From: Thauera aminoaromatica S2
Lineage (GTDB): Bacteria > Pseudomonadota > Gammaproteobacteria > Burkholderiales > Rhodocyclaceae
Length of the DNA stretch: 57,588 nt
Assembly: GCF_000310185.1 (NCBI RefSeq)
Contig: NZ_AMXD01000008.1
Location: forward strand, 1-57,588
Direction: 5' to 3'
This document shows, piece after piece, positions 3,551 to 29,952 of the stretch (within the stretch, counting starts at the first letter, position 1; each line of letters opens with the position of its first letter). Both the position numbers and the translations under genes were made by a program. Under the pieces are notes generated by a model. It saw only the letters and a program-made list of their open reading frames with translations. It did no database searches and had not been told where the DNA came from.

Positions 3551-4513
3551 ATGTCATCGTTCCGGCTGTCGCACCTGCACAAGCTGCTCGACCCCGAGAT
3601 CCGCGCCAAGAACCTCCAGTGGCTGCGCTGGCGGGCCCGGGAGCTCTACTGGTCGGCCGCCCATCCGGCCATGCCCGACCCGGTCTTCGTGATCGGCTGC
3701 TCGCGCTCGGGCACCACCGTCACCTTCGAGACGCTCGCCGCGTCCGGGCAGTACCTGCATTTCGACTACGAGCTGCCGCAGCTCTGGGACGGGCTGTACG
3801 GGCCGCTGAACAACGGCTGGGCATCGGAAGCCGCAGGCCCGGAACATGCCGACCACGCGCACCGCGAACGCGCGCTCGCCTACTTCTATGCGCGCCTCGG
3901 CGCCGGCCCGGTGCTCGACAAGACCTGCATCAACACGCTGCGCGTGGCCTACCTGCACAAGCTGTTCCCGCGCGCGAAGTTCGTCTTCATCCACCGCGAT
4001 GGACGCGACAACATCAGCTCGATGATAGACGGCTGGCGGCTGGGCCGTACCGATGGCGGCTTCGGCCTGGAGAAATTCTTCGGCCCGTCGCCGGTGCCGG
4101 TGGAGATCAACGGCGGCGAGTTCCGCGAATGGCACTTCTTCCTGCCGCCGGGGTGGCGCGACTACAACCGGGCCAGCCTGGAAGAGGTATGCGCGTTCCA
4201 GTGGATCAGCGCCAACCGGCTCGCCCTCGACGCGGCGCGCGACGTGCCGGCGGCGCAGTGGATCCAGGTGCGCTACGAAGACATCTTCGAGCGCCCGGTG
4301 GAGATGTTCCGCACCGTGTTCGAACGCCTCGGCCTGCCCTTCGACGCGCGCATGGAGGCCCACTGCGCAGGACTCTCGGGGCGCCCGACCAGCATCGTCA
4401 AGGGCACGCCGAAGAAGCAGAAATGGAAGGAGAGCAACCCCGAGGCGATCGCGCGCATCCTGCCGGCGATCGCTCCGCTGATGCGCGAGCTGGGCTATGC
4501 GCTCGACGACTGA
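3551..4513 (+). CDS. Sulfotransferase family protein
   Basis: 320 residues. 'GCSRSGTT' (49-56) is the 5'-phosphosulfate loop of PAPS-dependent sulfotransferases. '[12 protein letters not shown]' (about 146-157) supplies the Arg and Ser that bind the 3'-phosphate of PAPS. A late 'RYEDIF' segment is also typical of the Sulfotransfer_3-type family. The predicted reaction is transfer of sulfate from PAPS to a hydroxyl or amine, plausibly on the glycan made by the surrounding glycosyltransferases. No signal peptide is seen, so it is cytoplasmic. Its last 17 bases overlap the next glycosyltransferase, which suggests translational coupling. Some members of this fold act on other acceptors, so sulfation of the polysaccharide is inference. 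Confidence 0.82.
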
Positions 4514-5399
4514 GCCGACGGTCAGCGTCGTCATCCCGGCCTTCAACGCCGCCTGGTGCATCCGGCGCGCGGTCGACAGCGTGCTGGCGCAGGACTTCAC
4601 CGATTTCGAGCTGATCGTCGTGGACGACGGCAGCACCGACGACACCGCGGAGGTCCTGCGCGGCTACGGCGACGTGCTGCGCCTCGTCTCCCAGCCCAAC
4701 GGCGGCATGAGCCGGGCGCGCAACGCCGGCATCCGCCTCGCACGCGGGCGCTACATCGCCTTCCTCGACGCCGACGACCGCTGGCTCCCCGCCAAGCTCG
4801 GGCGCCAGGTCGCACTGCTCGATCAGCGCCCGGAGCTGGCCTTCTGCGCCGCGACGGCGAGCCTCGAGGACCCGGACGGCAAGCCAGTCGGCATCTGGGC
4901 CTGCCAGGGCGACGGCACCGCCTCGGTGGCCGAGGTATTCGCCGCCCATGCGCTGATCGCGGGGGGCGCCTCGTCGGTGCTCGCGCGACGCGAGCCGGTG
5001 CAGGCGCTCGGCGGTTTCGACGAGGCCCTGTTCGGCGCGGAAGATACCGACCTGTGGATCCGTCTGGCCGCATGCGGCGGCTTCGCATGCATCCCCGAGG
5101 CGCTGGTGGTGGTACTCAAGCGCCCCGGCAGCGTGAGCCGGAACCGCGCGCGGATGCGCGCCGGCGCACTGGCGATGACGCGCAAGAACCGCCCTCTCCT
5201 GCCCGCCGACAAGCGCGGCGCCTACTGGCGCGCACTCTATGCCGGCACGTTGTGCGACTACGCCAAGTGGGCCTGCCGCGAGGGCGATCGTGGCGCCGCG
5301 CTCGCCGATCTCGCGCGCGCTTTCATGCACGCGCCACTGAGTCGCGGGCGGCTGATCGCCGCAATCGCGCTCGCCGTGCTCGCCGGAGGAAGGCTATGA
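4497..5399 (+). CDS. Family 2 glycosyltransferase
   Basis: 300 residues. '[11 protein letters not shown]' opens the GT-A domain, with 'VVDDGSTDD' (about 41-49) and the metal motif 'DADD' (91-94). '[12 protein letters not shown]' is the family's second acidic motif. The C-terminal 60 residues are helical and end in a hydrophobic segment ('[15 protein letters not shown]'), possibly a membrane contact. The start at 4497 overlaps the sulfotransferase by 17 bases. The stop shares ATGA with the next start at 5396, so all three genes look translationally coupled. Donor and acceptor are not known. Confidence 0.88.
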
Positions 5400-8300
5400 A
5401 CGCAGCTGCCGCCACCCCCGGCCTCACCATCCTGATCTGCACGCACAACCGCGCGGACCTGCTCGCACGCGTCATCGATTCGCTCGAGTCCGCCCGCCAG
5501 CCTGCCGGCTGGAGTGTCCGCCTGTTCGTCGTGGCCAACGCCTGCACCGACGGCACGCACGAGTTCCTGGCCGGGCGCAGCGACCGCGCGGATCGGCTGG
5601 CGCTGTCGTGGATCGCGGAGCCCACGCCGGGAAAGTCGCATGCGCTCAACCGCGCCCTGCCCTTGCTGGAGGACGAGCTGGTCGCCTTCGTCGACGACGA
5701 CCACCGCGTGGACGCCGACTACCTGCTCGGGGTCACCGCCGCCGCGGAGCGCTGGCCCGAGGCCGATCTCTTCTGCGGGCGGATCGTGCCCGACTGGGAC
5801 GGCAGCGAGCCGGCCTGGGTGCACGACGAAGGCCCCTATCGCATCTACCCGCTGCCGGTCCCGCGCTACGACCAGGGCATGGAGGACTTCCCGATCGACC
5901 TCGAGGGGCCGATCCCGGGAGGCGGCAATCTCGTCGCCCGCCTGCCGGTGATCGGTGCGACGGGACCGTTCGCGATCGAACTCGGGCCGACCGGACACGA
6001 TCTCGGCGGATCGGAGGACGCCGACTGGATCCTGCGCGCCTTGCGCAAGGGGGCCCGCCTGCATTACGCACCGCAGATCCTCCAGTACCACTATGTCGAT
6101 AGCGAACGCCTGACCTTGTCCTACGTCGCACGCAAGGGGTACCAGCGCTCGCAATCGGTCACGCGGGTGCGCGCGGAGTTCGACCGGGTGCCGCGCTACA
6201 TGTGGCGCAAGGCCGCGGGCTACGCCCTCGGGCTGGCGTTCTCGTGGCGGCTGCAGGCACGGCGCTTCTATCTGGTCCGCCTGGCTTCCTCGATGGGCGA
6301 GATCTCCGGCATCCGCGACCGCCACCGGCGCAAGCGCAGGCGTGCGGCACTGCCGATGCTCGGGGCGGAAGCGGGATCGGCGGCCTTGCTGGTGGCCGCC
6401 GCGCTCACGCTCGCGCTGGCGGCGGTGCTCGCGCGCCACTGGCTGGGCGAAGCCCTGCTCGGCGCCGGCGTGGTGGGCGCGCTGACGAGCGCGGTGCTGG
6501 TAGCCAAGTCGGTGCGGGATTTCTCGCGCACCGGACCGGGCCTGCGCGAAGAGATCCTCGCGCGCTATCGCGGCTACGTCGTCTTCGCCATCGCCCGCCT
6601 GGGGCTCGCGGCCCTCGGCCTCGCCGCGTTCTGGGCCTTCCCGGGCACCGCGCTGTGGATCACTGCGGCGGAAGCGCTCGGTCGGGAACCGCCGCTGTGG
6701 ACGACTGCCGCGGGCGGCGCCCTCACCCTCGCGCTCGCGACGGTGTATGCCGGCTGCCGAGCACTTTCGCAAAACCCGGGCCTGGTGATCGCGTCCTGGC
6801 AATATCGCACCGTCCGCATCCATCGCCTGTGGCGCGCGCTGTCGCAGCGCGGTCTCGACCTCATCGCGCGCATCGTGCTGGCGACCGGAATCGGCCTGGT
6901 CGGGGCGATCGCGTTGCTGCGCTACCACCAGGGCGGCAGCGCGGACGCGGGGGCCATGCTGCTCGTCACCTGCGGCTACATCGCGCTGCTCGCCTGGGCG
7001 ATCTGGGAGCCCGACGGCACACACGCCCCCACCCCGCGACGGCGCGCGCGGCGCAACGTGTTGATGATCGGCAGCGATACGCTCCGGGCCGACCGCATCG
7101 GCGCGCAACGCGAAGGCGCGTCGATCACCCCGAACATCGACGCGCTGGCCGCACGAGGCACCCGCTTCGGCGCCTGCTACGTCCCCTGCGCGCGCACCGC
7201 GCCGAGCCTGATCTCGCTGTTCACCGCGACCTGGCCGCACCACCACGGGGTGCGCGACAACTACGTGGCCGGCGCCGAGACGCGGCTCGAAGACAAGACC
7301 CTGCCGAACATCCTGCGCGCACTGGGCTATCGCACCGCGGCGGTTTCCGACTGGTGCGGCGCCGATCTGGGCAAGTTCGATTTCGGCTTCGACATCACCG
7401 ATCTGCCCGAGGATCAGTGGAACCTGAAGTACCTCATCCGCCAGGGCCCGAAGGACATCCGCCTGTTCCTGTCGCTGTTCCTGCACAATCGTCTCGGCCG
7501 TCACCTTCTTCCCGAGATTCACTACCTCGGCGGCGTGCCCCAGACCGGCATGCTCGGACGCCGCGCGCGACGCACGCTGTCGCGTTTGGCTGCGGGCGAC
7601 GAACCCTTCCTGCTCAACCTCTTCTATTCGACCACGCATCCGCCTTTCGCATCGGAGCACCCCTACTACACCCGGTTCTCCGATCCTGCCTATTCCGGCG
7701 CGTCCAAGTTCGCCATGGCCCGGCTGACCGAGCCGTTCGAGATCATCCGCCGCCAGGGCGAGCCGCGCGAGGAATTCGACCTCGACCAGATCCTCGATCT
7801 CTACGATGGCTGCGTGGCCCAGTTCGACGACGAGGTCGGGCGCCTGCTGCGCCAGCTCGACGACAGCGGCCTCGCGGAGGACACCATCGTGGTGCTCTAC
7901 AGCGACCACGGCATGGAGTTCTTCGAGCACGGCACCTGGGGCCAGGGCAACTCCGCCCTGGGCGACTTCAGCGCGCGCGTGCCGCTGATCGTCGTCGACC
8001 CGGCCCGACCGGGCGGCCAGCGCGTCGACCAGGTGGTGCGCAGCGTGGACATCATGCCGACCCTGCTCGATCTGCTCGGTGCGCCCTCGGTCGGCTGCGA
8101 CGGGGTGTCGCTGCGCCCGGCGATCGCCGATCCGACGACGGACCTGCACCTGCGCGCGTTCAACGAGACCGGGATCTGGATCGCACCGGTCCCCGGTCTG
8201 CCCGAAGGACACCTGAGCTATCCCAACCTGCTGGAACTGCTCGACGTTCCGGACATCGCGGCGGGCAGCCTGTCGCTGCGCGAGCGCTACCGCCAGACGG

Positions 8301-8593
8301 TACTGGTCGCCAAGGACCGCATGGTGCGGGACGGGCGCTGGAAGCTCGTCTACCAGCCGCTCGAGCACGGCAGGCTTCTCAGCCTGTACGACGTCGAGAG
8401 CGACCCCGGGTGCACCGCGGACGTCGCGTCCCGGCATCCCGCAGAGGTCGAGCGCCTGTGGGCGCAGCTGCGCGCCTGGATGGCGAACGACCCGGCGCTG
8501 CGCGGGGATCCCCGCCTGGATCTGCCGCCGACGCCCGCGGCGACCTCAGCCGCCAGCACGCCGGAAGCGGATCTCGCGCCCGAGATGCGGTAG
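5396..8593 (+). CDS. Fusion protein: GT2 glycosyltransferase - membrane region - sulfatase/alkaline-phosphatase-superfamily domain
   Basis: 1065 residues in three parts. Residues 1 to about 290 form a GT2 domain with 'CTHNRA' near 15 and the metal motif 'VDDDH' at 99-103. Residues about 325-540 hold roughly six hydrophobic segments after a very basic stretch ('RRKRRR'). Residues about 550-1010 form a sulfatase-like domain: metal ligands are expected at D561, H748 ('STTHPP'), D837-H838 ('YSDHG') and H845. The nucleophile region reads 'CARTAPSL' (598-605) and not the formylglycine CxPxR signature, so C598 or more likely T601 would be the nucleophile. That would favour a phospho-group transferase or hydrolase over a true sulfatase. 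The ATG at 5396 overlaps the previous stop (ATGA). The last 48 bases overlap the convergent gene on the minus strand. The substrate is unknown. Confidence 0.85.
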
Positions 8594-11896: not shown

Positions 11897-13021
11897 TCAG
11901 AGCGCGGCGAGCACTTGCTGGATGATCTCGGCCTGCGCGTCCTCCATGCCCAGCCACAGGGGCAGCCGCACCAGACGGTCGGCGATGTTCTCGGTGACGC
12001 TCAGTTCGCCGTGGGCACGACCGAAGCGGCGGCCCGCCGGCGCATCGTGCAGCGGGATGTAGTGGAACACGCAGTGGATCCCGAGGCCGCGCAGGCGCTC
12101 GATGAAGGCCGTGCGTTGCTCCAGCCCCGGCAGCAGCAGGTAGTACATGTGGGCGTTGTGCCCGCAATGTGCGGGGATCACCGGGCGCCGCAGCCTGCCC
12201 TGGCGCTCGGCCTCGGCAAACCACTGGTGGTAGGTGTTCCAGATGCCCAGGCGGCGACGGGTGATGCTGTCGGCCTCCTCCATCTGCGCCCACAGGAAGG
12301 CGGCGATGAGTTCTCCGGGCAGGTAGGACGAGCCGATGTCCACCCAGGTGTATTTGTCCACCTGGCCACGGAAGAACTGGGAGCGGTTCGTGCCCTTCTC
12401 GCGGATGATCTCCGCGCGCTCGGCGCGCCCCGGAGCATTGACCAGCAGGGCGCCACCCTCGCCCGAGATGATGTTCTTGGTCTCGTGGAAGGAGAGCGCC
12501 CCCATGTGCCCGATCGCGCCGAGCGGCCGGCCCTTGTAGCTCGCCATCACCGCCTGCGCGGCATCCTCGACGACGAGCAGGTCGTGGCGGCGGGCGATGT
12601 CCATGATCGTGTCCATCTCGCAAGCGACGCCCGCGTAGTGCACCGGCACGATCGCGCGCGTGCGCGCGGTGATCGCCGCCTCGATCAGACGCTCGTCGAT
12701 GTTGAGCGTGTCCGGGCGGACGTCGACGAACACCGGCACCGCGCCCCGCAACACGAAGGCATTCGCGGTGGACACGAAGGTGTAGGCCGGCATGATGACC
12801 TCGTCGCCCGGCTCCAGGTCGGCGAGGATCGCCGCCATCTCGAGCGCGGCGGTGCACGAATGGGTCAGCAAGGCCTTGGAGGCACCGGTACGCGCCTCGA
12901 GCCAGCGCGAGCACTGGCGGGTGAAGTTCCCGTCGCCCGCAAGGTGGCCGTTGGCGTGGGCCTGGGCGATGTACCAGAGTTCCTTGCCCGTCATGTGGGG
13001 CTTGTTGAAGGGGATGTTCAT
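11897..13021 (-). CDS. wecE: dTDP-4-amino-4,6-dideoxygalactose transaminase (WecE/RffA)
   Basis: 374 residues and very close to E. coli WecE along its length: 'IPFNKP' start, 'GDEVIMPAYTFVSTANAFVL', 'VEDAAQ' (151-156), 'SFHETKN' with the PLP lysine at K182, and 'EKGTNRSQFFRGQVDKYTW'. The enzyme converts dTDP-4-keto-6-deoxyglucose to dTDP-4-amino-4,6-dideoxygalactose (dTDP-Fuc4N) using glutamate. The ATG at 13021 overlaps the GtrA stop by 4 bases. The longer frame upstream is a shadow of gtrA. A WecD-like acetyltransferase two genes upstream would make dTDP-Fuc4NAc, as in the enterobacterial common antigen pathway. No rmlA or rmlB genes are in the window, so the precursor must come from elsewhere. 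Confidence 0.93.
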   Translation of the reverse strand: MNIPFNKPHMTGKELWYIAQAHANGHLAGDGNFTRQCSRWLEARTGASKALLTHSCTAALEMAAILADLEPGDEVIMPAYTFVSTANAFVLRGAVPVFVDVRPDTLNIDERLIEAAITARTRAIVPVHYAGVACEMDTIMDIARRHDLLVVEDAAQAVMASYKGRPLGAIGHMGALSFHETKNIISGEGGALLVNAPGRAERAEIIREKGTNRSQFFRGQVDKYTWVDIGSSYLPGELIAAFLWAQMEEADSITRRRLGIWNTYHQWFAEAERQGRLRRPVIPAHCGHNAHMYYLLLPGLEQRTAFIERLRGLGIHCVFHYIPLHDAPAGRRFGRAHGELSVTENIADRLVRLPLWLGMEDAQAEIIQQVLAAL

Positions 13022-13440
13022 GGCTGCGGCCCGGTCGAGTGCGAGTGAGGAACGGAATTCGGACGGAAGACCCAAAACTTCTGCAGAAGAAACAGCAGGA
13101 TCGCGAGCACGACGATCGACACGCCCTGGACGAGCTGATGGGGATGGCCCATGCGGTCGACCAGCACCATCAGCGCGACCAGGTTGAGCAGGTAACCCGC
13201 TGCGTAGGAGAGACAGTAGCGCACGAACGCCGGCCCGTGCATCCCGCCGTGTCGGAAGGACCAGCGCTTGTTGAAGACGAAGGTCTGCACCACCCCGAGC
13301 AGATAGAGCACGCTCATGGCGAGCTTGGCCCCGACGCCTGTCGCCGTCAGCGCGAGATAAGCCAGGTAGAGCACCACGTTCGATGCCAGCCCCACCGTCG
13401 CGTAGCGGACGAACTGGCCCAGGGTGGCTTGCGCGCTCAT
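13018..13440 (-). CDS. GtrA-like membrane protein
   Basis: 140 residues with four hydrophobic segments, the size and layout of the GtrA family. 'FVRYATVGLASNVVLYLAYL' at the start and 'FVFNKRWSF' in the middle are family-typical. GtrA proteins are thought to flip undecaprenyl-phosphate sugars across the inner membrane in O-antigen glucosylation systems. It lies between the acetyltransferase and wecE, overlapping each by 4 bases, and a GtrB-like transferase is two genes upstream. This supports a gtr-type system for a Fuc4N-derived sugar. The flippase activity is established only loosely for the family. Confidence 0.88.
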   Translation of the reverse strand: MSAQATLGQFVRYATVGLASNVVLYLAYLALTATGVGAKLAMSVLYLLGVVQTFVFNKRWSFRHGGMHGPAFVRYCLSYAAGYLLNLVALMVLVDRMGHPHQLVQGVSIVVLAILLFLLQKFWVFRPNSVPHSHSTGPQP

Positions 13441-14240
13441 GCAAGCCGAACCCTGTGGAAAGTCATCGAGGGCGCCGGGAAGCTGAAGCCGAGACGCGCA
13501 TAGAGGTTGAGCACCCGATGGTTGCGCGCCACGATGCTGGTACGCACCCGGGTCGCCCCTTCGAGGCGCGCCTGGTTCATCATCGCGCGCCAGGCGCGCA
13601 AGCCGTAGCCCCTGCCCTGCCGCTGCGGCACGACCGCGTTGAGATGCCAGTAGCAGGTGCCGTCGGCAAGCTGCTCGGTGACGAAGAAGGCGACCAGTTC
13701 GGCCCCTTCGCGCACGGCATGGAGGCGTTGCGAGGGATGCTCGAGGCTGCTGCGCACCCAGTTCTGGTAGCGCAGGTCGCCAAGCCGCGATGGCAGCCGC
13801 GGGTCGACGTGGAAACGTTCGTTCCGGAAGGCGCCTCCCGCCACCTCGACGATTTCCTCCAGATCTTCAGGTCGCGCTCGTTCGACCACCAGTCCCTGTG
13901 CATCGCGCGGCCCGGCCGACTGCAGGTCGCCGAACTCGGGCTGGAAGACCATCTCGATGAAACGAAAGCCGACCTCCTCGAGCAGCATCGATTCGCGCAG
14001 CCGATCATGGGGGAGCCGGCAGCTCGCCAGCCCCACGCCCCCGACCTCGCATGCGGCGACGAAGGGCGCCAGATCCGCCGCGCTGGCGCCCGTGCGGGCT
14101 TCGATGCGCGACACCTGCACCACCGGATGGCCGAATACCGCCGTGTCCCAGGGGGCCTCCGCCCATTCGAGGCGGAGCTCAGCCATGTCGATGCGGCCGT
14201 GCAGGGGGTGGGAGGGGGCGGCTTCAGCAGCACTGGTCAT
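13437..14240 (-). CDS. GNAT acetyltransferase, probable WecD-like
   Basis: 267 residues. The C-terminal half is a GNAT domain: 'WHLNAVVPQRQGRGYG' contains the acetyl-CoA pyrophosphate loop (QRQGRGYG), followed by 'MMNQARLEGA' and 'LNLYARLGF', the usual last strand and helix. WecD acetylates dTDP-Fuc4N, the product of WecE, and in enterobacteria the two genes are neighbours. Here only gtrA separates them. I chose the ATG at 14240 because it has a GGAG about 8 bases upstream and overlaps the previous gene by 17 bases. An in-frame start 16 codons earlier would overlap more. General GNAT function is clear. The exact substrate is inferred from context. Confidence 0.75.
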   Translation of the reverse strand: MTSAAEAAPSHPLHGRIDMAELRLEWAEAPWDTAVFGHPVVQVSRIEARTGASAADLAPFVAACEVGGVGLASCRLPHDRLRESMLLEEVGFRFIEMVFQPEFGDLQSAGPRDAQGLVVERARPEDLEEIVEVAGGAFRNERFHVDPRLPSRLGDLRYQNWVRSSLEHPSQRLHAVREGAELVAFFVTEQLADGTCYWHLNAVVPQRQGRGYGLRAWRAMMNQARLEGATRVRTSIVARNHRVLNLYARLGFSFPAPSMTFHRVRLA

Positions 14241-15186
14241 GGACAGTCTCCGTGTCGCACTGCGCAGCGGTGGAGGATCGCAGCGCATAGGGCGGACGCT
14301 CCATCGAGCGGAAATGCATCCTCGCCAGGTACTCCCCGAAGATCCCCAGCGCGAACAGCTGGACGCCCGAGAAGATCGCGATGATCGAGGCCAGGAAGGG
14401 GAATCCGGGCACCGCGCTTCCGTCGACGAGATAGCGCAGGAGCACGTACAGGAGCACCAGGAAGCCCATCGACCCGAAAGCCAGCCCGAGCACGCTGGCG
14501 ACCTGCAGCGGCAGCACCGAGAAGCCGGTCATCATGTTGATCGCATGATTGATGAGCTTGCGCAGGGTGTAGCCGGAATCGCCGACGGCACGCTCGTCCT
14601 GGCGAACGAGAACGGAGCCGAAACGCGTCGTGCCCCAGGTGAGCAGCACGTCGATATTGACCGACGGGCTGCGGTAGGCCGAGAAGGCCTCGCGCAGGCG
14701 GGCGCGGAAGACGCGGAACGCGCTCACCTTGCTCGCCGACTCCACGCCCATCGCCCCCTGCAGCGCGAGCTTGGTGATCCTCGAGGCCTGGTCGCGCAGG
14801 AAGCCGTGCGTCTCGGCCTGTGGCGAACCATAGACGACGTCGTAGCCTTCATCCAGTCTGGCCAGCAGGCGATGGATCTCTTCCGGCGGATTCTGCAGGT
14901 CGTCGTCCAGCGTCACGACGAGCTCGCCGCGCGCGGCCCGAATGCCGCACAGCAGGGCGTTGTGCTGGCCGTAGTTGCGCGCCAGGCGCAGGCCGAGCAC
15001 GCGGGGATCGGCCGCAGCCAGCTGCTCGATGACGCTCCAGGAGTCGTCGCCGCCGCAGTCTTCCACGAGGATGATCTCGAACGGCCGGCCGATCTGCTCG
15101 AGCGCGCCGACGAGCCGTCGATGCAGTTCGGGCAGCATGGCCTGCGAGCGATAGACCGGAACGATGGCGGAAATATCGATGGACAT
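14224..15186 (-). CDS. Polyprenyl-phosphate glycosyltransferase, GtrB/ArnC-like (GT2 with two C-terminal membrane helices)
   Basis: 320 residues. The GT-A domain starts with 'ISAIVPVY'. 'LDDDLQNPPEEI' (93-104) is the hallmark of the dolichol/undecaprenyl-phosphate glycosyltransferase group that includes GtrB and ArnC. Two long hydrophobic segments near residues 230-295 are the expected membrane anchors. The family moves a sugar from a nucleotide donor to undecaprenyl phosphate on the cytoplasmic face. Context suggests the donor is dTDP-Fuc4NAc or a related sugar. The ATG at 15186 is chosen because homology begins immediately. An open extension upstream overlaps the TPR gene tail and is rejected. 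A GAAGA lies close upstream as a possible ribosome site. Confidence 0.87.
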   Translation of the reverse strand: MSIDISAIVPVYRSQAMLPELHRRLVGALEQIGRPFEIILVEDCGGDDSWSVIEQLAAADPRVLGLRLARNYGQHNALLCGIRAARGELVVTLDDDLQNPPEEIHRLLARLDEGYDVVYGSPQAETHGFLRDQASRITKLALQGAMGVESASKVSAFRVFRARLREAFSAYRSPSVNIDVLLTWGTTRFGSVLVRQDERAVGDSGYTLRKLINHAINMMTGFSVLPLQVASVLGLAFGSMGFLVLLYVLLRYLVDGSAVPGFPFLASIIAIFSGVQLFALGIFGEYLARMHFRSMERPPYALRSSTAAQCDTETVHDQCC

Positions 15187-16036: not shown

Positions 16037-17134
16037 TCATTTCGGCGCTTCGGGTCCTTGCGCCCGCGCACCGCCCCTGGCGACATCCGCCTGCGCACGC
16101 AAGCGCGACAGGCGCTCGAATATCACCTGCGCCGCAAGCGCATGCCCTGCTCCGCTCCAGTGCGTATCGTCCGGCATATAGACGTCGATAACACCGCGCT
16201 CCACGGCGTCGCGAATGGCGAGGTCGAGCCGGGCGTCGGGCACATCGAGTCCGTCGAAGAGCTCGCCCAGCCGCTCGGCTGGCAGTCGGGCGGGATCGCG
16301 CGCCCAGGGACGATACGCGCTCGACTTGTCCGGCGCCAGCGCGGTCATGAACACCGTCCGTCCGTCGGCCTGAAAGCGCGTCGCCAGGTCTGCGAGGGCG
16401 CAGCGGATCCGGCGCAGGTGTTCCGCACTCCAGGCGGCCTTGTTGAAATCGTCGCCGTACACCAGCAGGCGGGCGGATGCGCGCGACGAGAAGAGGTCGG
16501 CACGCACGAGTTCGACCTCCACCGTGTTGCCGGCCTGCACACCGAAGAGACCACGCATGGCACTGCGGTAGAGCCAGCTGCGCGCGAACCCGGGGTTGGC
16601 CTCCGCCAGCGCATGCGGCCGCGGCACCGCGCGGGCATGCGCCACGACCGCCATCGGCGGCGGCAGCGCGAGCGGCGGCGCGGGGCGCGAGCTCGGACAC
16701 AGCCCCTCCACCTTCGCGTGATCCGCAGCCAGGCCGCGCTCGACCACGTTCCAGATCACCACCTTCGGCGGATGTTCCACGAACAGGGGCGACGCGCGCA
16801 AGGCGTCCACGTCTACGCGATGGACGTCGAGCGTATGCACGCTCCAGCCGGTCATTGCGGCGAGGTGGTTCTGCCATTGCTGGGCCGGTCGCAGGTTCGC
16901 GAACGAATCGCCGACCACCAGGATGTCCACCGGCCGCGTCCATTCGCCGAACGAGGTCGGAAGCGGATCGAATTCGAGCACCGGCTCGTTCCAGCCATGC
17001 GTGCGCTCGGCGTACCCGCCGAGGCGGGTCAGGTCGCCATAGACCGGCTGCAACCACCACGCCAGCATCCACGCGGCCGCGACCAGGACCAGGGTGAGTC
17101 CGACGACGAAGAGGGAAAAGGCGCGCGGCTGCAT
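16037..17134 (-). CDS. AlgX/AlgJ-like SGNH O-acetyltransferase partner
   Basis: 365 residues. One N-terminal membrane segment (about 8-28) anchors a periplasmic domain. 'VVGDSFAN' (73-80) has the SGNH nucleophile S77, and 'DDTHWSGAGH' (322-331) supplies the catalytic Asp and His (D323, H325), the pattern of AlgJ and AlgX in alginate O-acetylation. The family transfers acetyl groups to polysaccharide in the periplasm after an MBOAT protein passes them across the membrane. The MBOAT gene is directly upstream, with stop and start sharing one base (TGATG), so the two are coupled. No carbohydrate-binding module as in AlgX is obvious, so it is closer to AlgJ in layout. Confidence 0.83.
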   Translation of the reverse strand: MQPRAFSLFVVGLTLVLVAAAWMLAWWLQPVYGDLTRLGGYAERTHGWNEPVLEFDPLPTSFGEWTRPVDILVVGDSFANLRPAQQWQNHLAAMTGWSVHTLDVHRVDVDALRASPLFVEHPPKVVIWNVVERGLAADHAKVEGLCPSSRPAPPLALPPPMAVVAHARAVPRPHALAEANPGFARSWLYRSAMRGLFGVQAGNTVEVELVRADLFSSRASARLLVYGDDFNKAAWSAEHLRRIRCALADLATRFQADGRTVFMTALAPDKSSAYRPWARDPARLPAERLGELFDGLDVPDARLDLAIRDAVERGVIDVYMPDDTHWSGAGHALAAQVIFERLSRLRAQADVARGGARAQGPEAPK

Positions 17135-19873: not shown

Positions 19874-21112
19874 TCACCGTGCCCGCGCGGCGCAGCGGCC
19901 ATGCATCACGCCCGCGATCAGGAAGACCGGCGCGAGCGCGAACCGCAGGCCGCTGTATTTCAGGAAGCGCCGCAGCGCGGGCTCGTGCTCGACCCGGGCC
20001 AAGAAGACGGCCACCCTGTGCGGCAAGGAACGGGTGACGAGCCCCGTGGCCGCAGCGGCCAGTTCGTCGGCGAGCTCGGCGGTGGACAGGAAGCGCACGT
20101 CCGGATGGCGTTCGAGCACCCCGCGCAAGGCCCGCTCCAGCTCGTCGTTCGCCGCGCGCGCGACCGCTGCGGCGCCCACGAAGCTCTCGCGATGGGTCTC
20201 GAGCAGGACCGGGCGGCCGAGGCGCCGCTTCGCCGCCACGGCCTGCCAGACCTGTTCCGCCCGATGGCCGCGGATCGGTTCGAAATAGTCGTCGCGCACC
20301 AACTGCATCAGTCCGTCGGCGGTGCGCTCTCCATTGCGGATGACGCGCGTCGGCGGCATCAGTGCCCCCTGGCCGTCACGCCCCTCGATGCGACGCCCCG
20401 GGGTGACGATGCAGCGCACGCTGCTCCCCGCCCACGCACGCTCGACCGCGTCGTCCCAGACGAAGGTGTTCGGCACCGCCACCACCGGCGCCGCACCAAA
20501 CAGGCGCTCGAGCAGCCGCGCCTCCTCATCGACGGCACATTGCACCGCCGCGGGATCCAGGGGCCGGCTGGGCAGCACCGAGGCGTCGATCCAGCGGCTC
20601 TGCAAATGCGACGGCAGCCCTTCGCTGCGCGCCTGCGGATCGGCCAGCCAGTCGCGCAGCGAGGCATCGACGCGGGCTCGCGCAAGCAGCGCATCGGGCC
20701 AGAAATGTTCCATGCCGTGTCGCTGGAGGGCGAAGACCCCCGCGCCGCAGCCGGCACGCATCGCCTCGACCATCGGCGCGAACTCGGGCGCATCGAGCGC
20801 CCTGCGGTGGTAGCGCGCAAGGCCGTCGGCCAGCATGGCGGCCCCGTCCGGCAGGCTGCACACGACACCGAGGGTCATCACCGCCGGCCTCCCGCGCTGG
20901 TCGCGCACCGCGGCGAGCCGGGAAGCGAGCCCTGCAAGCGCGTCGGCGTCCGCCACCGGCCCGGGACCCCAGTCGTCGCTCTCGACGATCAGCACGGGCT
21001 GTGCGAGCACGGGTTCGTTCCACAGGGCTCGCAGAGCGGCACGGTGCACAACGACCACCGACACGGTGGCGCCGATCCACCACGACACGAAAAGGGCCAA
21101 CACGAACGACAT
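19874..21112 (-). CDS. Membrane-anchored NodB-like deacetylase family protein ('SDDWG' type)
   Basis: 412 residues. One N-terminal membrane helix ('FVLALFVSWWIGATVSVVVV') is followed by a globular domain. 'IVESDDWGPG' looks like the catalytic strand of a distinct NodB-like group annotated as polysaccharide (de)acetylase. 'PAVMTLGVVC' and 'LQRHGMEHFWP' fit its later conserved segments, the HGMEH His pair probably binding metal. The C-terminus is again hydrophobic. I place the start at the ATG at 21112, which has AGGAG 11 bases upstream (21124-21128). A TTG at 21142 would add ten residues. It lies between the two acylation pairs. Deacetylation of the glycan is inferred and weakly supported. Confidence 0.6.
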   Translation of the reverse strand: MSFVLALFVSWWIGATVSVVVVHRAALRALWNEPVLAQPVLIVESDDWGPGPVADADALAGLASRLAAVRDQRGRPAVMTLGVVCSLPDGAAMLADGLARYHRRALDAPEFAPMVEAMRAGCGAGVFALQRHGMEHFWPDALLARARVDASLRDWLADPQARSEGLPSHLQSRWIDASVLPSRPLDPAAVQCAVDEEARLLERLFGAAPVVAVPNTFVWDDAVERAWAGSSVRCIVTPGRRIEGRDGQGALMPPTRVIRNGERTADGLMQLVRDDYFEPIRGHRAEQVWQAVAAKRRLGRPVLLETHRESFVGAAAVARAANDELERALRGVLERHPDVRFLSTAELADELAAAATGLVTRSLPHRVAVFLARVEHEPALRRFLKYSGLRFALAPVFLIAGVMHGRCAARAR

Positions 21113-21253
21113 TGACTCAACGACTCCTAAGAAGCGCTTCAATCACGACGGTCAGCCCCTACCCCAGCATAACCACGTGTACGGTGGCGAGCAGCCAGTG
21201 CGTCCCCCCGCACGCCCGAATGATCTGCAGGCCCGCGGAGCACCTTTAATCCG

Positions 21254-23803: not shown

Positions 23804-25651
23804 ATGACGAAACGACGAGTACTGTGCGGCTGGGTGAATTTCGACGAGCGGGTCACATCGCACGACCCGCTACGCGCGATGCTGGCTGCCGAAGGGCTGG
23901 GGCTGACCGACGTCCAGATCCAGGCGAGCGAGATCGGCATGATCGCGTGCACCTATCCCGCCTGCTCCACCGCGACCGACCTCGGGGCAGGCTGCGTGGC
24001 TGCGGTCCTTGGCCGTCCGCGCTGGCCCGACGCGGATCTGCGCGAGCGGGCAGAAACCGAAGGTCACGCTGCCGCCGCGCTCGTCGCCTGGCGCAAATCC
24101 GGCAACGACATGCTGCAGGCCATGCGCGGCAATTTCGCCCTCGTCCTGATCGACACCCGCCAGCGCTGCGCACTGCTCGCAATCGACCGCACCGGGATCG
24201 AGCGGCTGTGCTTCGCGCGAGTCGGTGGCGCGCTGGTATTCTCGACCAGCGCCCGCGCAGTCGCCCGCCACCCCCTGACCGCAGCAGCGGTGAACCCGCA
24301 GGCTCTCTACGAATATCTCTACTGCCATATGGTGCCCAGTCCGGATACCGCGTTCTCTGGCGTCGAGAAACTGCTGCCCGCCGAATGCGCGACCTTCACC
24401 GGTAGCACGCCGGCAAAGCGCTCCTTCTACTGGCAACTGGCTTACGATGCGGGTGGGGGCGCCAACGACGCTATGCTGCGCCAGCGCTTCCTGGATCTGA
24501 CCGAACAAGCTGTGGCACGCCAGTACGACGCCCGACAACCCACAGGGGCCTTCCTGTCCGGTGGCACGGACAGTTCGACCGTAAGCGGCATGCTAGGCAA
24601 GGTCGCCGGCGTTCCGGCCAAGACATTCTCGATCGGATTCGAGGCCGAAGGCTTCGACGAGCTCGAATACGCGCGCCTCACCGCCCGCCATTTCGGAACC
24701 GAAACGAACGAGTACTACGTGACTGCGGACGATCTGATCGAGGCGATGCCCTTGATCGCCGCCGCCTACGACGAACCCTTCGGCAACGCGTCGGCCGCAC
24801 CCACCTACTTCTGCGCAAAGATGGCGCGCGAGCGGGGTATCGAGGTGGTGCTCGCCGGGGACGGCGGAGACGAATTCTTCGGCGGCAATGAGCGCTACGC
24901 CAAACAGGGTGTTTTCGAGCACTACCACCGTGTGCCGTTACCGCTGCGCAGACTGCTCGAGCCGATGGTGATGAATTTTCCGCTCGGCCAGTCGATTCTG
25001 CCGGTACGAAAGGCGCAGAGCTATGTCAGGCAGGCCCGCATTCCGCTGCCCGACCGCATGGAAACCTACAACTTCCTGCATCGCAACCCACTGCAGGAGA
25101 TCTTCGAACCGGAATTTCTCGTCTCGGTCGATACCGGACGCCCACTTCAACTGGCGCGCGAAGCCTACTTCCGTTGCGCCTCGCCGGAGATGGTCGAGCG
25201 CATGATGCACCTCGACCACAAGATCACGCTCGCCGACAACGATCTGCGCAAGGTTACGCGGATGTGCGAGGCGGCAGGCGTGGAGGTTCGTTTCCCGCTC
25301 CTTGATGACGACCTCGTCGAGTTCTCCGGACATCTGACGCCGCGTCAGAAGGTGGACAAGGGACGCCTGCGCGTGCTCTTCAAAGATGCATTGCGCGGCT
25401 TCCTGCCCGATGCGACGATCACCAAGAGCAAGCACGGCTTCGGCCTGCCGTTCGGGATCTGGCTTGAGGACCATGCGCCGCTCAAGGCGCTGACGGACGA
25501 CGCAATCGACAGTCTGGGGAGACGCGGCATTGTCAAGCCCGACTATCTCGCACTGCTGCGCCGCGAGCACGCCAGCGGCCACGCGAGCTACTACGGTGTG
25601 ATGATCTGGGTGCTCGTCGAACTCGAGCTCTGGCTGCGCGCCAACTCCTGA
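23804..25651 (+). CDS. Asparagine synthetase family protein with degenerate glutaminase domain
   Basis: 615 residues. The C-terminal half is an intact AsnB synthetase domain: 'FLSGGTDSS' (250-258, ATP pyrophosphate loop), 'GDGGDEFFGG', 'VRFPLLDDDLVEFS' and 'KSKHGFGLP'. The N-terminal half has the right length for a class II glutaminase, but the protein starts 'MTKRRVLCGW', so no Cys can become residue 1 after Met removal, and the NGEIYN-type segment is missing. The half is probably not able to use glutamine, so ammonia would be free or the reaction would differ. It stands alone on the plus strand between minus-strand genes. Its 3' end overlaps the O-antigen-ligase gene by 61 bases. The substrate is unknown. 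Confidence 0.85.
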   Translation: MTKRRVLCGWVNFDERVTSHDPLRAMLAAEGLGLTDVQIQASEIGMIACTYPACSTATDLGAGCVAAVLGRPRWPDADLRERAETEGHAAAALVAWRKSGNDMLQAMRGNFALVLIDTRQRCALLAIDRTGIERLCFARVGGALVFSTSARAVARHPLTAAAVNPQALYEYLYCHMVPSPDTAFSGVEKLLPAECATFTGSTPAKRSFYWQLAYDAGGGANDAMLRQRFLDLTEQAVARQYDARQPTGAFLSGGTDSSTVSGMLGKVAGVPAKTFSIGFEAEGFDELEYARLTARHFGTETNEYYVTADDLIEAMPLIAAAYDEPFGNASAAPTYFCAKMARERGIEVVLAGDGGDEFFGGNERYAKQGVFEHYHRVPLPLRRLLEPMVMNFPLGQSILPVRKAQSYVRQARIPLPDRMETYNFLHRNPLQEIFEPEFLVSVDTGRPLQLAREAYFRCASPEMVERMMHLDHKITLADNDLRKVTRMCEAAGVEVRFPLLDDDLVEFSGHLTPRQKVDKGRLRVLFKDALRGFLPDATITKSKHGFGLPFGIWLEDHAPLKALTDDAIDSLGRRGIVKPDYLALLRREHASGHASYYGVMIWVLVELELWLRANS

Positions 25652-26964
25652 CTGCGCAGACCGGTTGAGGCCGGCGGGGTGGTCGTCCCCAAGCTTCGAG
25701 CCGTCATGGGGGGAGTCTTCCGATGCCCCAGCGTCGACGGAGCGGCGGTGGGGAACTGCCCCGCGAGCTCCTTTTCCAGCATCGCACGCACCGCCACGAT
25801 GATCACGATCAGGTGGTAAAACAGGTCGAAATACTGCAGGCCCAGGAAAGAGCCGGCCGACATGTAGCCGATCAGGCTGACCTGGATCATCGCGGCGAGG
25901 TCCCGCGCCCAGGTCAGTTCCTTGTGCGGCTTCACCATGCGGATGATCTGTGTCGCCGACCGCCAGGTGAAGATGTGCAGCAGCACGAACATGACGAGAC
26001 CGGGCCAGCCCTGCTCGCCGAGCGTACCGAACCAGTTGCTGTGCGAATCGGTGCCTCCGAAGCCCGTGACCGCGCGGAAACCCCCGCCGAGCAGGCTGGA
26101 GTTGGCGATGTAGACGGCATTCCCCCAGGCGTAGATGCGCCCTTGTGCCGAGCCGTCCTCATCATAGGTCTGGATCGTGTGCATGCGCTCGAACCACTCC
26201 GGCGGCATCACGTAGAACACGACCAGCACCACCGGGATGATCCCGATCAGGACCCCGAGCCGGTTGCGCGCCTTGAGCAGGAAGAACACCCCCATGGCGC
26301 CGAGCCCGACCAGCGCACCGCGCGAATGCGTGCCGATCACGGCGATCAGAGTGAGGACGGACATGGCGAGCAGCCCCAGGCGCTGCCAGGCCACCTTGAG
26401 CTGCAGGCGGATGTACCAGAGCAGCGGGACCGTCATCAGCAGGGCGAGGCCGATCGAGTTGCGGTCCTCGATGAAGGAGCCGCCGGGGCCGCGCACGTTG
26501 TTTCCGCTGCCCCCGGTCAGGACGAAGATGCCGCCCTTCACCCCGTAGAAGGCCAGCGAGAAGGCGATCACGACCACCAGCCAGTGAACGCGGTCGCGGT
26601 CGCGGATCAGCATCAGGGTGACGTAGGTCATCAACATGATCCGCCACACCTTGTCCCACTGCGGCCAGGCCAGGCCCGGATACCACGAGAAAGCCGTGGT
26701 CAGGAACATCCATCCGGTGAACACCAGCATCAGCCAGGTCTCGCGCGACCACACGATCTCCTTCTTCTCGCGCGAGAACAGGATGCCGACGAAAGTGGCG
26801 AGCGCGACCATGAATGCGAAGGGCATCGAGGTCGAGAAGCCCCAGGCCATCCGGTGCGGATTCATGTAGCTCAGCCACGACCACGCGAGAATGCCGATCC
26901 ACGGGTATCTGAGGATGAAGGGCAGCGTGCCGAACACCGCGAGGGTGACGATCAGGTCGCGCAT
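25591..26964 (-). CDS. O-antigen ligase-like protein, exosortase A system-associated
   Basis: 457 residues with about ten membrane segments and a large periplasmic loop around 'RGPGGSFIEDRNSIG' and 'TYDEDGSAQGRIYAWGNA', the pattern of the exosortase-A-associated Wzy/WaaL-type family (TIGR03097). 'TDSHSNWF' is the conserved late His-containing motif. It would polymerise or ligate lipid-linked glycan in the periplasm. The C-terminal 50 residues are Ser/Thr/Pro-rich, hydrophilic and probably cytoplasmic. The ATG at 26964 overlaps the CapK-like gene by 13 bases. The 3' end runs 61 bases into the convergent asnB paralogue. It is the last gene of the XrtA operon. Confidence 0.9.
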   Translation of the reverse strand: MRDLIVTLAVFGTLPFILRYPWIGILAWSWLSYMNPHRMAWGFSTSMPFAFMVALATFVGILFSREKKEIVWSRETWLMLVFTGWMFLTTAFSWYPGLAWPQWDKVWRIMLMTYVTLMLIRDRDRVHWLVVVIAFSLAFYGVKGGIFVLTGGSGNNVRGPGGSFIEDRNSIGLALLMTVPLLWYIRLQLKVAWQRLGLLAMSVLTLIAVIGTHSRGALVGLGAMGVFFLLKARNRLGVLIGIIPVVLVVFYVMPPEWFERMHTIQTYDEDGSAQGRIYAWGNAVYIANSSLLGGGFRAVTGFGGTDSHSNWFGTLGEQGWPGLVMFVLLHIFTWRSATQIIRMVKPHKELTWARDLAAMIQVSLIGYMSAGSFLGLQYFDLFYHLIVIIVAVRAMLEKELAGQFPTAAPSTLGHRKTPPMTARSLGTTTPPASTGLRSQELARSQSSSSTSTQIITP

Positions 26965-28325
26965 GACACCTCCGAGGCGTCGACCTTGCTGACGACGTAG
27001 CGATACTTTCCGGACTTCTCCGGCGCAATCTCGGCAACCTGCTCCACGTCGATCCGCACCCCCTCGCCGAGCCGGGCCGCCAGACCGTGCTCGATCCGAC
27101 CGACAGTGTCGGCGTCGAACCCCACGCCCGGCACCACCTGCACCCGAGTGTGCTCCAGCGACTCCTGCACGATGCGGAAGCCCGCCACCTGGGGCAGGTC
27201 GCGCAGCACGTAGATCAGCGCCAGCCCGTGCATCACGGTGCCGTCGCGGGCGACGACGAAGTCGGTCGCGCGTCCCTGGATCTCCCTCAGCATCGGCAGG
27301 CCGCGCCCGCAGGCGCAGGTCGCGGTGTCCATCACCGCCACGTCCCCGGTGCGATAGCGGATGAAGGGGAAGTCGCCGGTGGCGAGATGGGTGACGACGA
27401 TCTCGCCCGCCTGCCCGGGCGGCAGCACCCTGCCCTCGCCATCGACGATCTCGACAATGAGGTCCTCGGCAGTGAGGTGCATGCCGCCTTGCGGGCACTG
27501 GTGGGCGATGAAGCCGGCGTCGCGCGAGCCGTAGCCGTTGGCGACCGGGCAGCCGAAGACACGCTCGATGGCCTCGCGCTGGTGGTCGTAGAGGCGCTCG
27601 GAGGTGCAGAACGCCACCTCGATGCCGAGGTCGTCCATGCGAATCCCGCGCCTTTCGGCGTGCAGGCCGATATGGGACAGCGCCGAAGGGTAGCCGAAGA
27701 CCATCTTCGGGCGGCGCGCGCGGATGCGGGCGACGAAGCCGTCCAGCTTCGTGGCGGACATCTCGAAGGCGGGCAGCAGCTCGGTACGGAACAGCCGATC
27801 CCGCAGTGCGCGCACCCGGTCCTGCGCGCCGAGCTCGATCGGCGAGCCCCACACGACAATCTCGGGATCGCCGATGTCGACGCCCCACCAGCGCGTCGCG
27901 CGCCACTTGGCGGCGACGTCGTGGCTCACACGCCGGTCGCCGATGAAGAAGATGAGCGGCTCGCCGCTCGAGCCGCCGGTGTTGAAGCGAGCCAGTCCGA
28001 CCGCGTCGTCGGCCTTCAAGGCTTCGGTATTGGCGCGGATCTCCGCCTTGCCCAGGAAGGGCAGGCGCTGCAGCTCGGCCAGGCTGGCGATCGCCGCGGG
28101 GTCGAAGCCGATGCGCGCGAAGCCTTCGCGGTAATAGGGCACGTGGTCGCGCGCATGCACCAGCAGCGCACGCAGGCGCTCGAGCTGCAGGGCCTCGATG
28201 CGCTCGCGCGGCCACCACTGGCTATCCTCCAGGCCGCGCCGCAGGGCGACGCTGTCGTGTTGCTTGAGGCGCTCGTGGAGCGGGAAAAGCAGGCCCGAGA
28301 CCAGGCGGGTGTAGAGGCCGGACAT
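26952..28325 (-). CDS. CapK / phenylacetate-CoA-ligase-like adenylate-forming enzyme
   Basis: 457 residues. 'NTGGSSGEPL' is the ATP-binding P-loop of the phenylacetate-CoA-ligase/CapK group. 'YGSRDAGFIAHQCP' and 'PFIRYRTGDVA' are the later adenylation motifs, with a 'CACGRGLP' cluster before the C-terminal domain. The family activates a carboxylic acid as acyl-AMP, often for CoA transfer. CapK-type members occur in capsule and EPS loci, where the acid is usually unknown. The ATG at 28325 has GGAGG 8 bases upstream, a strong ribosome site. It is the second-last gene of the XrtA operon and may supply an acyl or aminoacyl donor for glycan decoration. Confidence 0.87.
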   Translation of the reverse strand: MSGLYTRLVSGLLFPLHERLKQHDSVALRRGLEDSQWWPRERIEALQLERLRALLVHARDHVPYYREGFARIGFDPAAIASLAELQRLPFLGKAEIRANTEALKADDAVGLARFNTGGSSGEPLIFFIGDRRVSHDVAAKWRATRWWGVDIGDPEIVVWGSPIELGAQDRVRALRDRLFRTELLPAFEMSATKLDGFVARIRARRPKMVFGYPSALSHIGLHAERRGIRMDDLGIEVAFCTSERLYDHQREAIERVFGCPVANGYGSRDAGFIAHQCPQGGMHLTAEDLIVEIVDGEGRVLPPGQAGEIVVTHLATGDFPFIRYRTGDVAVMDTATCACGRGLPMLREIQGRATDFVVARDGTVMHGLALIYVLRDLPQVAGFRIVQESLEHTRVQVVPGVGFDADTVGRIEHGLAARLGEGVRIDVEQVAEIAPEKSGKYRYVVSKVDASEVSCAT

Positions 28326-28341: not shown

Positions 28342-29952
28342 TCAAGGGTTCGCGGTGCGATCCAGCATGGCCTGCAGGGGCCCGCCCATCTCGCGTGCGA
28401 AGTCTTCAAGCGCGGCGATCGTGCCGGCGTGCCCGCCCTGACCCTGCGGCGCATGCAGCATGACCACCGCCGAATCGTCCCCTTCGCCGCGCAGGCGGCT
28501 CAGCGCCAGATAGACCTTGGCAAGATGATCGCTGGTGGTCCACCGGCCGCCGATCCAGTACGCGTACCAGACGACCATGCGTGCATGCTCGCTCGCCATC
28601 TCCAGCGTGCGCCACGCCTGCGCCTGGTCGCCGAGTTGCACCCGGACCGGACCCGCGGCGGTCATGCGCCACACCGGGTCCTTGCTGATCAGCACGCGGT
28701 TCTCGGAATTGATCAACTCCCTGCCCGGTCCCTGGTCGCGGTAATAGCCGATGTACACCCCCACCGGAACGCTCCCCGCGCGCCAGGTCGAACGGAAGGT
28801 GTCGCGCATGCCGGAATAGCTCGGCGACCACGGCGGCAATTCGCCCGCTTCCGTCCGCTGCCACGCGCCCTGCCCCTCCAGCGCGGCGAAGCGCACCGGC
28901 CCCTGCTCGCCCTGGCGCTCGAGGTGGCCGAGGACCGGCACCCACAGCCCCACCGCGACCACCGCCACGGCCAGCCAGCCCAGGCCACCGGTGCGTACGC
29001 CCGACGATCGCGCGGAGCCGACGGGCATGGCCGGGGCCTCTTCCTCGTCCTCCTGCCAGCGCGAACCGATCCAGAACAGCGCGAGGATGATGATGCCGAA
29101 GAAGACCCAGCCGTAGATCAGGTGGTCGGCCCCGGCAGCGAGGCGGTTGTCGGTGAGGTGGCCGAGCATCACGATGCCGTAGGCGCGCAGCCAGTTGGCG
29201 AATACCGGCAGCACGATCGAGGCGGCGACGAAAAGCAGGCGCTTCTGCGTGCTGCGGTAGTTCAGGTAAGCGTACAGGCTGCCGACGACGATCGAGGCCA
29301 TCAGGTAGCGCACGCCGCTGCACCCCTCCACCACCTGCCAGCGCCCGGAGGGGATCACCAGCAGGAAGCCTTCGGCGTACACCGGCACGCCGGAGGCGCG
29401 CACCGCCCAGATGATGAAGTCGGCGGTCCACTGCATCATGGTGGGGAAGAGGAACTCGCCGAACGGCACCATGAAGAACAGGAAGCCGATCGGGAAGGCG
29501 TAGGTGCGCACCACCGCGCTGCCCATCACCGCCCAGACGAAGCCCACCAGCATGCCCACGAAGGCGAACTGCGACACCGCATCGACGCTGGCGAGCTCGC
29601 CGAGCAACCAGGCCGCGCCGGCGACGAGTCCGGCGCAGATGCCGAGCAGCGAGGGCGCGATCGGTACATGGTCGATGAAGTGCCGGCGCCGCCATACCAG
29701 CCAGGCCGAGATCGGCGCGATCACGAAGCCGTGGGCGAAGGTGTCCGAGCGGTCCCAGATGCCCACCATGGCCAGGAAGGTGTCGCGATACCAGAACAGC
29801 AGCCACAGCAGTCCCAGCGCAAGCACCGCCAGGTGAAGCCTGCGCGTGCGCGGATCACCGAGCGTCGCAGGGCGGGCGTCGGTCGCCTGCAGGTGGGTCG
29901 GCATCGCGCCCGGCCGCACGGATTGAAGCATCGCGGTTCCTTTCATGTTCAT
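28342..29952 (-). CDS. xrtA: Exosortase A with fused EpsI domain
   Basis: 536 residues. About eight membrane segments span residues 40-300. 'EGCSGVRYL' (209-217) holds the active-site Cys C211, 'NWLRAYG' (253-259) the conserved Arg R256, and 'DHLIYGW' (276-282) the conserved His H277. This is the exosortase Cys-Arg-His set. The C-terminal 200 residues form the EpsI/DUF3485 domain, fused here as in many XrtA proteins. The enzyme is a cysteine protease-transpeptidase-like sorting protein in the inner membrane that processes PEP-CTERM proteins, probably attaching them to surface glycan. The ATG at 29952 overlaps the GT4 stop (ATGA) and follows GAGGG. An ATG two codons later is also possible. No PEP-CTERM substrate gene is in this window. 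Confidence 0.95.
   Translation of the reverse strand: MNMKGTAMLQSVRPGAMPTHLQATDARPATLGDPRTRRLHLAVLALGLLWLLFWYRDTFLAMVGIWDRSDTFAHGFVIAPISAWLVWRRRHFIDHVPIAPSLLGICAGLVAGAAWLLGELASVDAVSQFAFVGMLVGFVWAVMGSAVVRTYAFPIGFLFFMVPFGEFLFPTMMQWTADFIIWAVRASGVPVYAEGFLLVIPSGRWQVVEGCSGVRYLMASIVVGSLYAYLNYRSTQKRLLFVAASIVLPVFANWLRAYGIVMLGHLTDNRLAAGADHLIYGWVFFGIIILALFWIGSRWQEDEEEAPAMPVGSARSSGVRTGGLGWLAVAVVAVGLWVPVLGHLERQGEQGPVRFAALEGQGAWQRTEAGELPPWSPSYSGMRDTFRSTWRAGSVPVGVYIGYYRDQGPGRELINSENRVLISKDPVWRMTAAGPVRVQLGDQAQAWRTLEMASEHARMVVWYAYWIGGRWTTSDHLAKVYLALSRLRGEGDDSAVVMLHAPQGQGGHAGTIAALEDFAREMGGPLQAMLDRTANP

Follow-up and report, generated by a model that had tools for sequence, protein, structure and literature searches.

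A stretch of 57,588 nucleotides from Thauera aminoaromatica S2 (contig NZ_AMXD01000008.1, positions 1 to 57,588; hereafter the window) encodes a protein of 1065 residues in which a GT2 glycosyltransferase, a membrane core and a domain with the sulfatase fold are joined in a single polypeptide, and this three-part fusion is real. We see an even chance that the protein is a two-headed exopolysaccharide enzyme of the inner membrane, whose inward-facing sulfatase-fold domain decorates a lipid-linked glycan by threonine-based phospho-transfer together with a sulfotransferase. Thauera and related bacteria probably use it for building their slime coat. The new elements are the combination of known parts, the predicted inward placement, and a core for which there is neither a Pfam nor a Protein Data Bank (PDB) fold match; no description of a fusion of GT2, core and sulfatase fold was found in the open-access literature.

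The evidence for the fusion begins with its two outer domains. The N-terminal part matches the Pfam family Glycos_transf_2 (PF00535) at 41.6 bits over residues 11–145, against a cut-off of 23.3, and both the aspartate metal motif D100–D102 (DDD) and the catalytic pair E207–D208 (ED) are identical in all 56 aligned sequences that contain the domain, as in a GT2 glycosyltransferase. The C-terminal part matches the family Sulfatase (PF00884) at 150.2 bits over residues 553–896 (cut-off 25) and belongs to that family. An AlphaFold model built from 58 sequences (mean predicted local distance difference test score 85, predicted template modelling score 0.80) has an alpha/beta domain at the N terminus, then six long helices, and finally another alpha/beta domain. 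Conservation is given here and below for an alignment of 58 rows (A2), made up of the 55 loci that remained after a similarity filter and the removal of L083, loci L070 and L073, and the window.

A scan of one genome each for 84,980 species led to 137 confirmed relatives, found in Thauera, Aromatoleum, Thiobacillus, Candidatus Nitrotoga, Sulfuricella, Chromatiaceae and others, and counts of loci use 80 of the 137. Matches that span from residue 12 or earlier to beyond residue 1000 occur at 65 loci, and exclusion of L083, which has a stop at the linker, leaves 64 of 80 with an unbroken fused frame. The first-pass annotation of this DNA had read a three-part fusion in one 1065-codon frame with complete GT2 motifs and about six hydrophobic segments, a reading that the family searches, the alignment and the model bear out. 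It had also allowed that a frameshift or an assembly error might have joined two genes; this is contradicted by the unbroken frames, and since the frame is conserved at 64 of 80 loci, neither chance nor a frameshift accounts for it.

Among the other loci, three run into the end of a contig with GT2 and core still joined (L041, L044 and L064), one contains six Ns and has a single-frame match that begins only at residue 104 (L079), one has a match that begins only at residue 301 (L092), and one is truncated by the start of its contig (L089). Others are natural variants. The gene has no GT2 part in L070 (Thauera sp. 2A1), L073 (a metagenome-assembled genome, MAG) and L100. In L091, L095, L096, L098 and L099 a different GT2-like sequence with extra hydrophobic spans is fused instead, PF00535 having been tested in L095 only. 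A GT2 of the same type is a separate gene in L083 and in the Marichromatium locus L101, where it is 56% identical to the fused domain. Locus L104 (genome G121) has a stand-alone GT2, 44% identical to the fused one, adjoining a sulfotransferase, and the membrane-sulfatase protein was not found in that genome, an empty search that is a weak negative. Because of these splits, losses and swaps, the constant unit is the membrane core with the sulfatase fold, while the GT2 can be exchanged.

The sulfatase-fold domain has kept the fold and lost the sulfatase site. Cys/Ser-x-Pro-x-Arg is the formylglycine motif of S1 sulfatases, and it is absent here, with T601-A-P-S-L605 in its place (Thr in 58 of 58 rows, Leu in 57 of 58); in HMMER alignments with sulfatases of solved structure, T601 falls on the Cys of CxPxR and L605 on its Arg. 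The Lys and His of the GKWH motif and a later Lys have roles in arylsulfatases, and the fusion domain has none of the three: the first is D652 (58 of 58 rows), the second C654 (56 of 58) and the third N852 (58 of 58). D561, D837 and H838, which align with the sulfatase metal ligands, and H748 of the sulfatase site are retained in every row. C598, R600, T601, P603 and S604 are also invariant in all 58 rows. As a candidate nucleophile C598 is ruled out by the alignment, though it is as invariant as T601, and in the AlphaFold model it lies in a loop three residues before T601, which opens a helix (601–610).

Because the nucleophile is of a non-sulfatase kind and aligns at T601, phosphoryl chemistry is the better guess, and the domain, as a sulfatase fold without a sulfatase site, points by its sequence to a threonine chemistry more like that of phospho-enzymes. 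The earlier annotation had likewise reported complete metal-ligand motifs, a non-sulfatase nucleophile within CARTAPSL (598–605) and a possible phospho-group chemistry; these are supported, with the nucleophile now placed by alignment at T601 rather than C598. In MCR-1, a phosphoethanolamine transferase, the metal is bound by Asp465, His466, Glu246 and the nucleophile Thr285 (PMC5216409). By alignment and conservation, the Thr, Asp and His of this type of metal site, as in EptA and LtaS, have predicted counterparts in the fusion, but where the family has a Glu (Glu246 in MCR-1) the fusion has Asp561. The loss of four sulfatase substrate positions would also fit a catalytically dead fold that serves as scaffold or sensor for the GT2 and the sulfotransferase, but the invariance of the Thr nucleophile and metal ligands in 58 of 58 rows makes this very improbable.

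Averaged over the family, the membrane core has six hydrophobic segments with their centres near residues 335, 361, 411, 445, 496 and 527, and the AlphaFold model has six long helices there. Residues 318–548 of the window protein have no Pfam match at E values up to 10, and among 34 core sequences searched at the same limit, 17 families were matched by sequences other than the window's, each in at most 2 of the 34 members. Foldseek likewise found no PDB fold match for the core at E ≤ 0.001; a relationship to CysZ, ranked first, was set aside as unusable (E 0.58, TM-score 0.27).

Several indirect lines indicate on which side of the membrane the sulfatase-like domain lies. Because six helices follow a cytoplasmic GT2, the chain would return to the cytoplasm. 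In the family average, the loops on the GT2 side carry a mean of 11.8, 4.9, 5.8 and 3.8 Lys plus Arg residues, and those on the opposite side 0.74, 0.31 and 1.05. A simple script that combines hydropathy and charge puts the domain on the inner side in all 58 rows, with six segments in 50 rows, seven in 5, five in 2 and four in 1. Three chains without the GT2 (L083, L100 and L101) have five helices, and for these the script predicts an N terminus outside and, again, the domain inside. L070 and L073, which are counted among the 58 rows, have no GT2 but retain the first helix and hence six, so helix loss is not always tied to loss of the GT2.

A further hint comes from locus L087 of Candidatus Nitrotoga (1052), where the frame runs on past the sulfatase fold into a PF04464 domain (48.9 bits, cut-off 22.1). 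Enzymes of this CDP-glycerol glycerophosphotransferase type use CDP-glycerol and are cytoplasmic. From the sulfatase fold of L087 to the end of its chain, no 19-residue stretch reaches the helix threshold of the script (highest value 1.19, threshold 1.25). From helix parity, loop charges, split variants and L087, the sulfatase-like domain is likely to be cytoplasmic, on the same side as the GT2. The first-pass annotation had proposed a sugar added on the cytoplasmic side and a phospho-group on the periplasmic side; the cytoplasmic GT2 is kept, and the periplasmic placement is opposed by the predicted topology.

Function is also suggested by the company that the fusion keeps. The family, taken at more than 900 bits, is present in 9 of 41 related genomes: the window's own, four with full fusions from the same genus or order at 54–82% identity, G013 at 48%, G020, in which the fusion is interrupted by the end of a contig, and G007 and G014, whose proteins have no GT2. 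These nine genomes, and none of the other 32, have a sulfotransferase match at E ≤ 0.001 (Fisher test, 2.9e-9 over the 41 genomes and 1.2e-6 over the 23 that have exosortase A, XrtA, over its cut-off, with kinship ignored in both). Eight of the nine belong to one genus, where the pair is patchy, occurring in 8 of 25 genomes. In seven of the nine the sulfotransferase is 78–100% identical and lies on the same contig near the fusion. In G013 it follows the fusion rather than preceding it, and because the order is reversed there, the link survives rearrangement. The flanking sequence retrieved for the 80 loci contains a sulfotransferase match in 58 cases, and 15 of the other 22 genomes have one at E ≤ 1e-27, several of these being fragments.

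In a Pseudomonadota sample searched with alignment A3 at E 1e-60, with at most two candidates scored per genome, the fusion was found in 1 of 398 genomes, the window's own, and a sulfotransferase at E ≤ 1e-20 in 5 of the 398, again including the window's own. Among viral contigs there were 46 pattern matches, none of them a relative. The exact co-occurrence could also mean that the domain acts on sulfate after all, shifting or cleaving off groups that the neighbouring sulfotransferase has added, with Thr standing in for formylglycine, and the retention of H748 in all rows is in keeping with this. It is nonetheless improbable, given that in the sulfatase site other residues stand for the Cys, the Arg, the His and both Lys, and that choline sulfatase works with Cys54/fGly54, His104 and a His201–Lys309 pair (PMC5870055).

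A number of observations count against an inward-facing phospho-transferase coupled to a sulfotransferase. Foldseek returned 626 matches to the sulfatase-fold domain at E ≤ 0.001, and the 50 listed are sulfatases, choline sulfatases, sulfamidase and phosphonate monoester hydrolases; the solved fold neighbours among the matches listed are thus hydrolases rather than transferases. This is the ground for the main rival, in which a cytoplasm-facing phosphodiesterase or phosphatase would serve to trim or recycle a glycan-assembly intermediate. The sequence neighbours fall in the same sulfatase/phosphonate monoester hydrolase group, and a phosphodiesterase family, PF01663, also matches residues 555–626. 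We regard such a hydrolase as possible though rather unlikely, since the fusion to a biosynthetic GT2 and a membrane core, within a biosynthetic cluster, would fit a transferase better.

Topology is a second weak point. Of eight yardstick loci, L109, L111, L112, L115 and L116 gave no call. L107 and L108, which we take from motif and helix pattern to be phosphoethanolamine-transferase-like, gave five helices and the expected outside placement by narrow margins in summed charge (17 against 16, and 16 against 14). L120, presumably OpgB-like, gave three helices and was called inside, contrary to expectation. Because the yardstick for the script is weak, the topology claim rests on helix parity, charge bias, the five-helix variants and L087. 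The miscall of L120 lends something to the view that the sulfatase-fold domain is periplasmic and adds its phospho-group after flipping, like EptA or LtaS, as does a predicted Thr nucleophile and metal set like that of MCR-1, whose catalytic domain is periplasmic (PMC5216409). Against this stand the six helices, the charge bias, the N-outside five-helix variants and the L087 fusion, and no EptA, LtaS or MCR chain, nor any other transferase, is among the 50 listed of the 626 fold matches, so that we hold a periplasmic domain to be distinctly unlikely. The CDP-glycerol-type transferase, for its part, occurs at only 2 of 80 loci (L087 and L090) and in none of 23 genomes of Thauera and the same order, and is a hint only. 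The sulfotransferase link has gaps as well: in G001 and G038 the sulfotransferase is 38–40% identical and its nearest copy about 9–13 kb away, and of the 80 relatives, 5 lack a sulfotransferase match both in the flanks and in the rest of the genome, and 2 have weak ones only.

With these points set against it, the inward-facing transferase can be envisioned as follows. The GT2 would add a sugar to a lipid-linked glycan at the cytoplasmic leaflet, as its family suggests, while the six helices would anchor the protein and bring the chain back to the cytoplasm, leaving the sulfatase-fold domain on the same side, as several indirect tests indicate. D561, D837 and H838 would hold the metal and T601 would act as nucleophile, on the strength of alignment and conservation, and the loss of sulfatase residues suggests that the intermediate is a phospho-threonine and carries no sulfate. 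Most likely the domain would move a phospho-substituent onto the glycan via T601; this might be a lipid head group or come from a similar donor, and the neighbouring sulfotransferase, judging by co-occurrence, may sulfate the same glycan. A more specific proposal, which we put forward only tentatively, is that in bacteria with exosortase A an inward-facing transferase of lipid head groups or phospho-polyols, a member of the alkaline phosphatase superfamily on a membrane fold that has no solved relatives, forms with the GT2 and the sulfotransferase a cytoplasmic module that sets sugar, sulfate and phospho-group onto the lipid-linked repeat unit before the unit is exported. EptA/MCR-type transferases with a similar Thr site face the periplasm, and an inward-facing one would, if true, change where phospho-substituents can be added to glycans. 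The sulfotransferase link suggests that Thauera, Aromatoleum and Thiobacillus make an exopolysaccharide that is sulfated and perhaps carries phospho-substituents, and the natural splits, losses and GT2 swaps are ready test material.

The window is an exosortase A/PEP-CTERM exopolysaccharide cluster. Besides XrtA and the O-glycosylation ligase (Table 1), for which the start of the reading frame was probably called too early, it encodes a TIGR04063 glycosyltransferase (657.8 bits, cut-off 442.05), and XrtA is over its cut-off somewhere in all 9 of the 41 genomes that have the fusion family. Two DltB-like O-acyltransferases lie on the minus strand at 17134–18690 and 21254–22690, where they score 172.5 and 145.1 bits and so stay under the cut-off of 375 for DltB. 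An AlgX-like SGNH protein (16037–17134) adjoins one of them, and the glycan of the cluster is probably also acylated. The region 11897–14288 on the minus strand encodes a dTDP-4-amino-4,6-dideoxygalactose transaminase (PRK11706, 622 bits, cut-off 375), a GtrA-like protein and, as a weak match, a WecD-like acyltransferase; the glycan thus probably contains an amino-dideoxy sugar. A 422-residue protein at 19874–21142 on the minus strand, with no Pfam or NCBIfam match, has counterparts in the flanking DNA of 56 of the 80 loci. The position of the sulfotransferase differs between groups: clusters of Thiobacillus and Nitrotoga have a 35–41% identical sulfotransferase further downstream (e.g., L030:20135, L053:21607 and L063:19014, minus strand), and the Thauera and Aromatoleum counterpart, 74–88% identical, is directly upstream of the fusion.

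Table 1. Coordinates of the fused gene, its parts and associated genes, in the window unless a locus is given.
Feature	Position	Strand	Basis
Whole fused gene, 1065 residues	5396..8593	+	Single 1065-codon frame; its ATG start shares ATGA (5396-5399) with the stop codon of the GT2 gene before it
GT2 glycosyltransferase domain, residues ~8-310	5417..6325	+	PF00535, invariant motifs, AlphaFold model, stand-alone homologues
Membrane core, predicted helices 323-345, 347-379, 385-427, 434-459, 484-511, 515-536	6362..7003	+	Hydropathy and AlphaFold model
Sulfatase-fold (alkaline phosphatase superfamily) domain, residues 553-~1030	7052..8485	+	PF00884, Foldseek
D561, predicted metal ligand	7076..7078	+	Alignment; invariant in 58/58 rows
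Nucleophile region C598-A-R-T-A-P-S-L605	7187..7210	+	T601 (7196-7198) aligned to sulfatase Cys
D837-H838, predicted metal ligands	7904..7909	+	Alignment; invariant in 58/58 rows
Sulfotransferase (PF13469)	3551..4513	+	Pfam, 85.3 bits (cut-off 27); co-occurrence with fusion
Second GT2 gene, which overlaps the sulfotransferase gene on one side and the fusion on the other	4497..5399	+	Pfam; neighbour genes in other genomes
Exosortase A-associated O-glycosylation ligase	25591..28218	-	TIGR03097, 448.6 bits (cut-off 188.1), residues 420-812
Exosortase A (XrtA), marker of PEP-CTERM/exopolysaccharide clusters	28342..29952	-	TIGR03109, 338.8 bits (cut-off 208)
CDP-glycerol glycerophosphotransferase-like PF04464 domain, C-terminal in fusion	L087:14024-15265		
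CDP-glycerol-type sequence, 55% identical, directly downstream of fusion, betaproteobacterial MAG	L090:7943-9124		
Sulfotransferase beside stand-alone GT2	L104:7713-9698	-	GT2 44% identical to the fused one

Set beside known systems, the fusion resembles each in part. With the S1 sulfatases and phosphonate monoester hydrolases of PF00884 it shares the fold, the Asp...Asp-His metal ligands and the position of the nucleophile; unlike S1 sulfatases, it has Thr for Cys, no CxPxR, SDWC for GKWH and Asn for the later Lys, and it is anchored by six helices and joined to a GT2. Like the phosphoethanolamine and phosphoglycerol transferases EptA, MCR-1, LtaS and OpgB, it combines a predicted Thr nucleophile with a multi-helix membrane part, although the NCBIfam models for LtaS (29.1 bits, cut-off 970) and LapC/YejM (25.2 bits, cut-off 825) fall far below threshold. 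MCR-1 has a Thr nucleophile with one metal, five transmembrane helices by prediction, and its catalytic domain in the periplasm (PMC5216409); unlike these enzymes, the fusion has six helices and a catalytic domain predicted to be cytoplasmic, so that by prediction it departs from the EptA/LtaS-type arrangement of five helices and a periplasmic catalytic domain. Its GT2 is like those of the HpsE-like exopolysaccharide group, in that PF00535 is over its cut-off and HpsE is the best NCBIfam glycosyltransferase model (69.2 bits), and unlike HpsE in falling below the cut-off of 300 and in being joined to a membrane core and a sulfatase fold. The words “sulfatase” and “sulfotransferase” are absent, by term search, from the main text of the XrtA/PEP-CTERM system description (PMC1569441). 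The likeness to XrtA/PEP-CTERM exopolysaccharide clusters lies in the setting of the gene, with XrtA, the O-glycosylation ligase and the TIGR04063 glycosyltransferase all over their cut-offs in the window.

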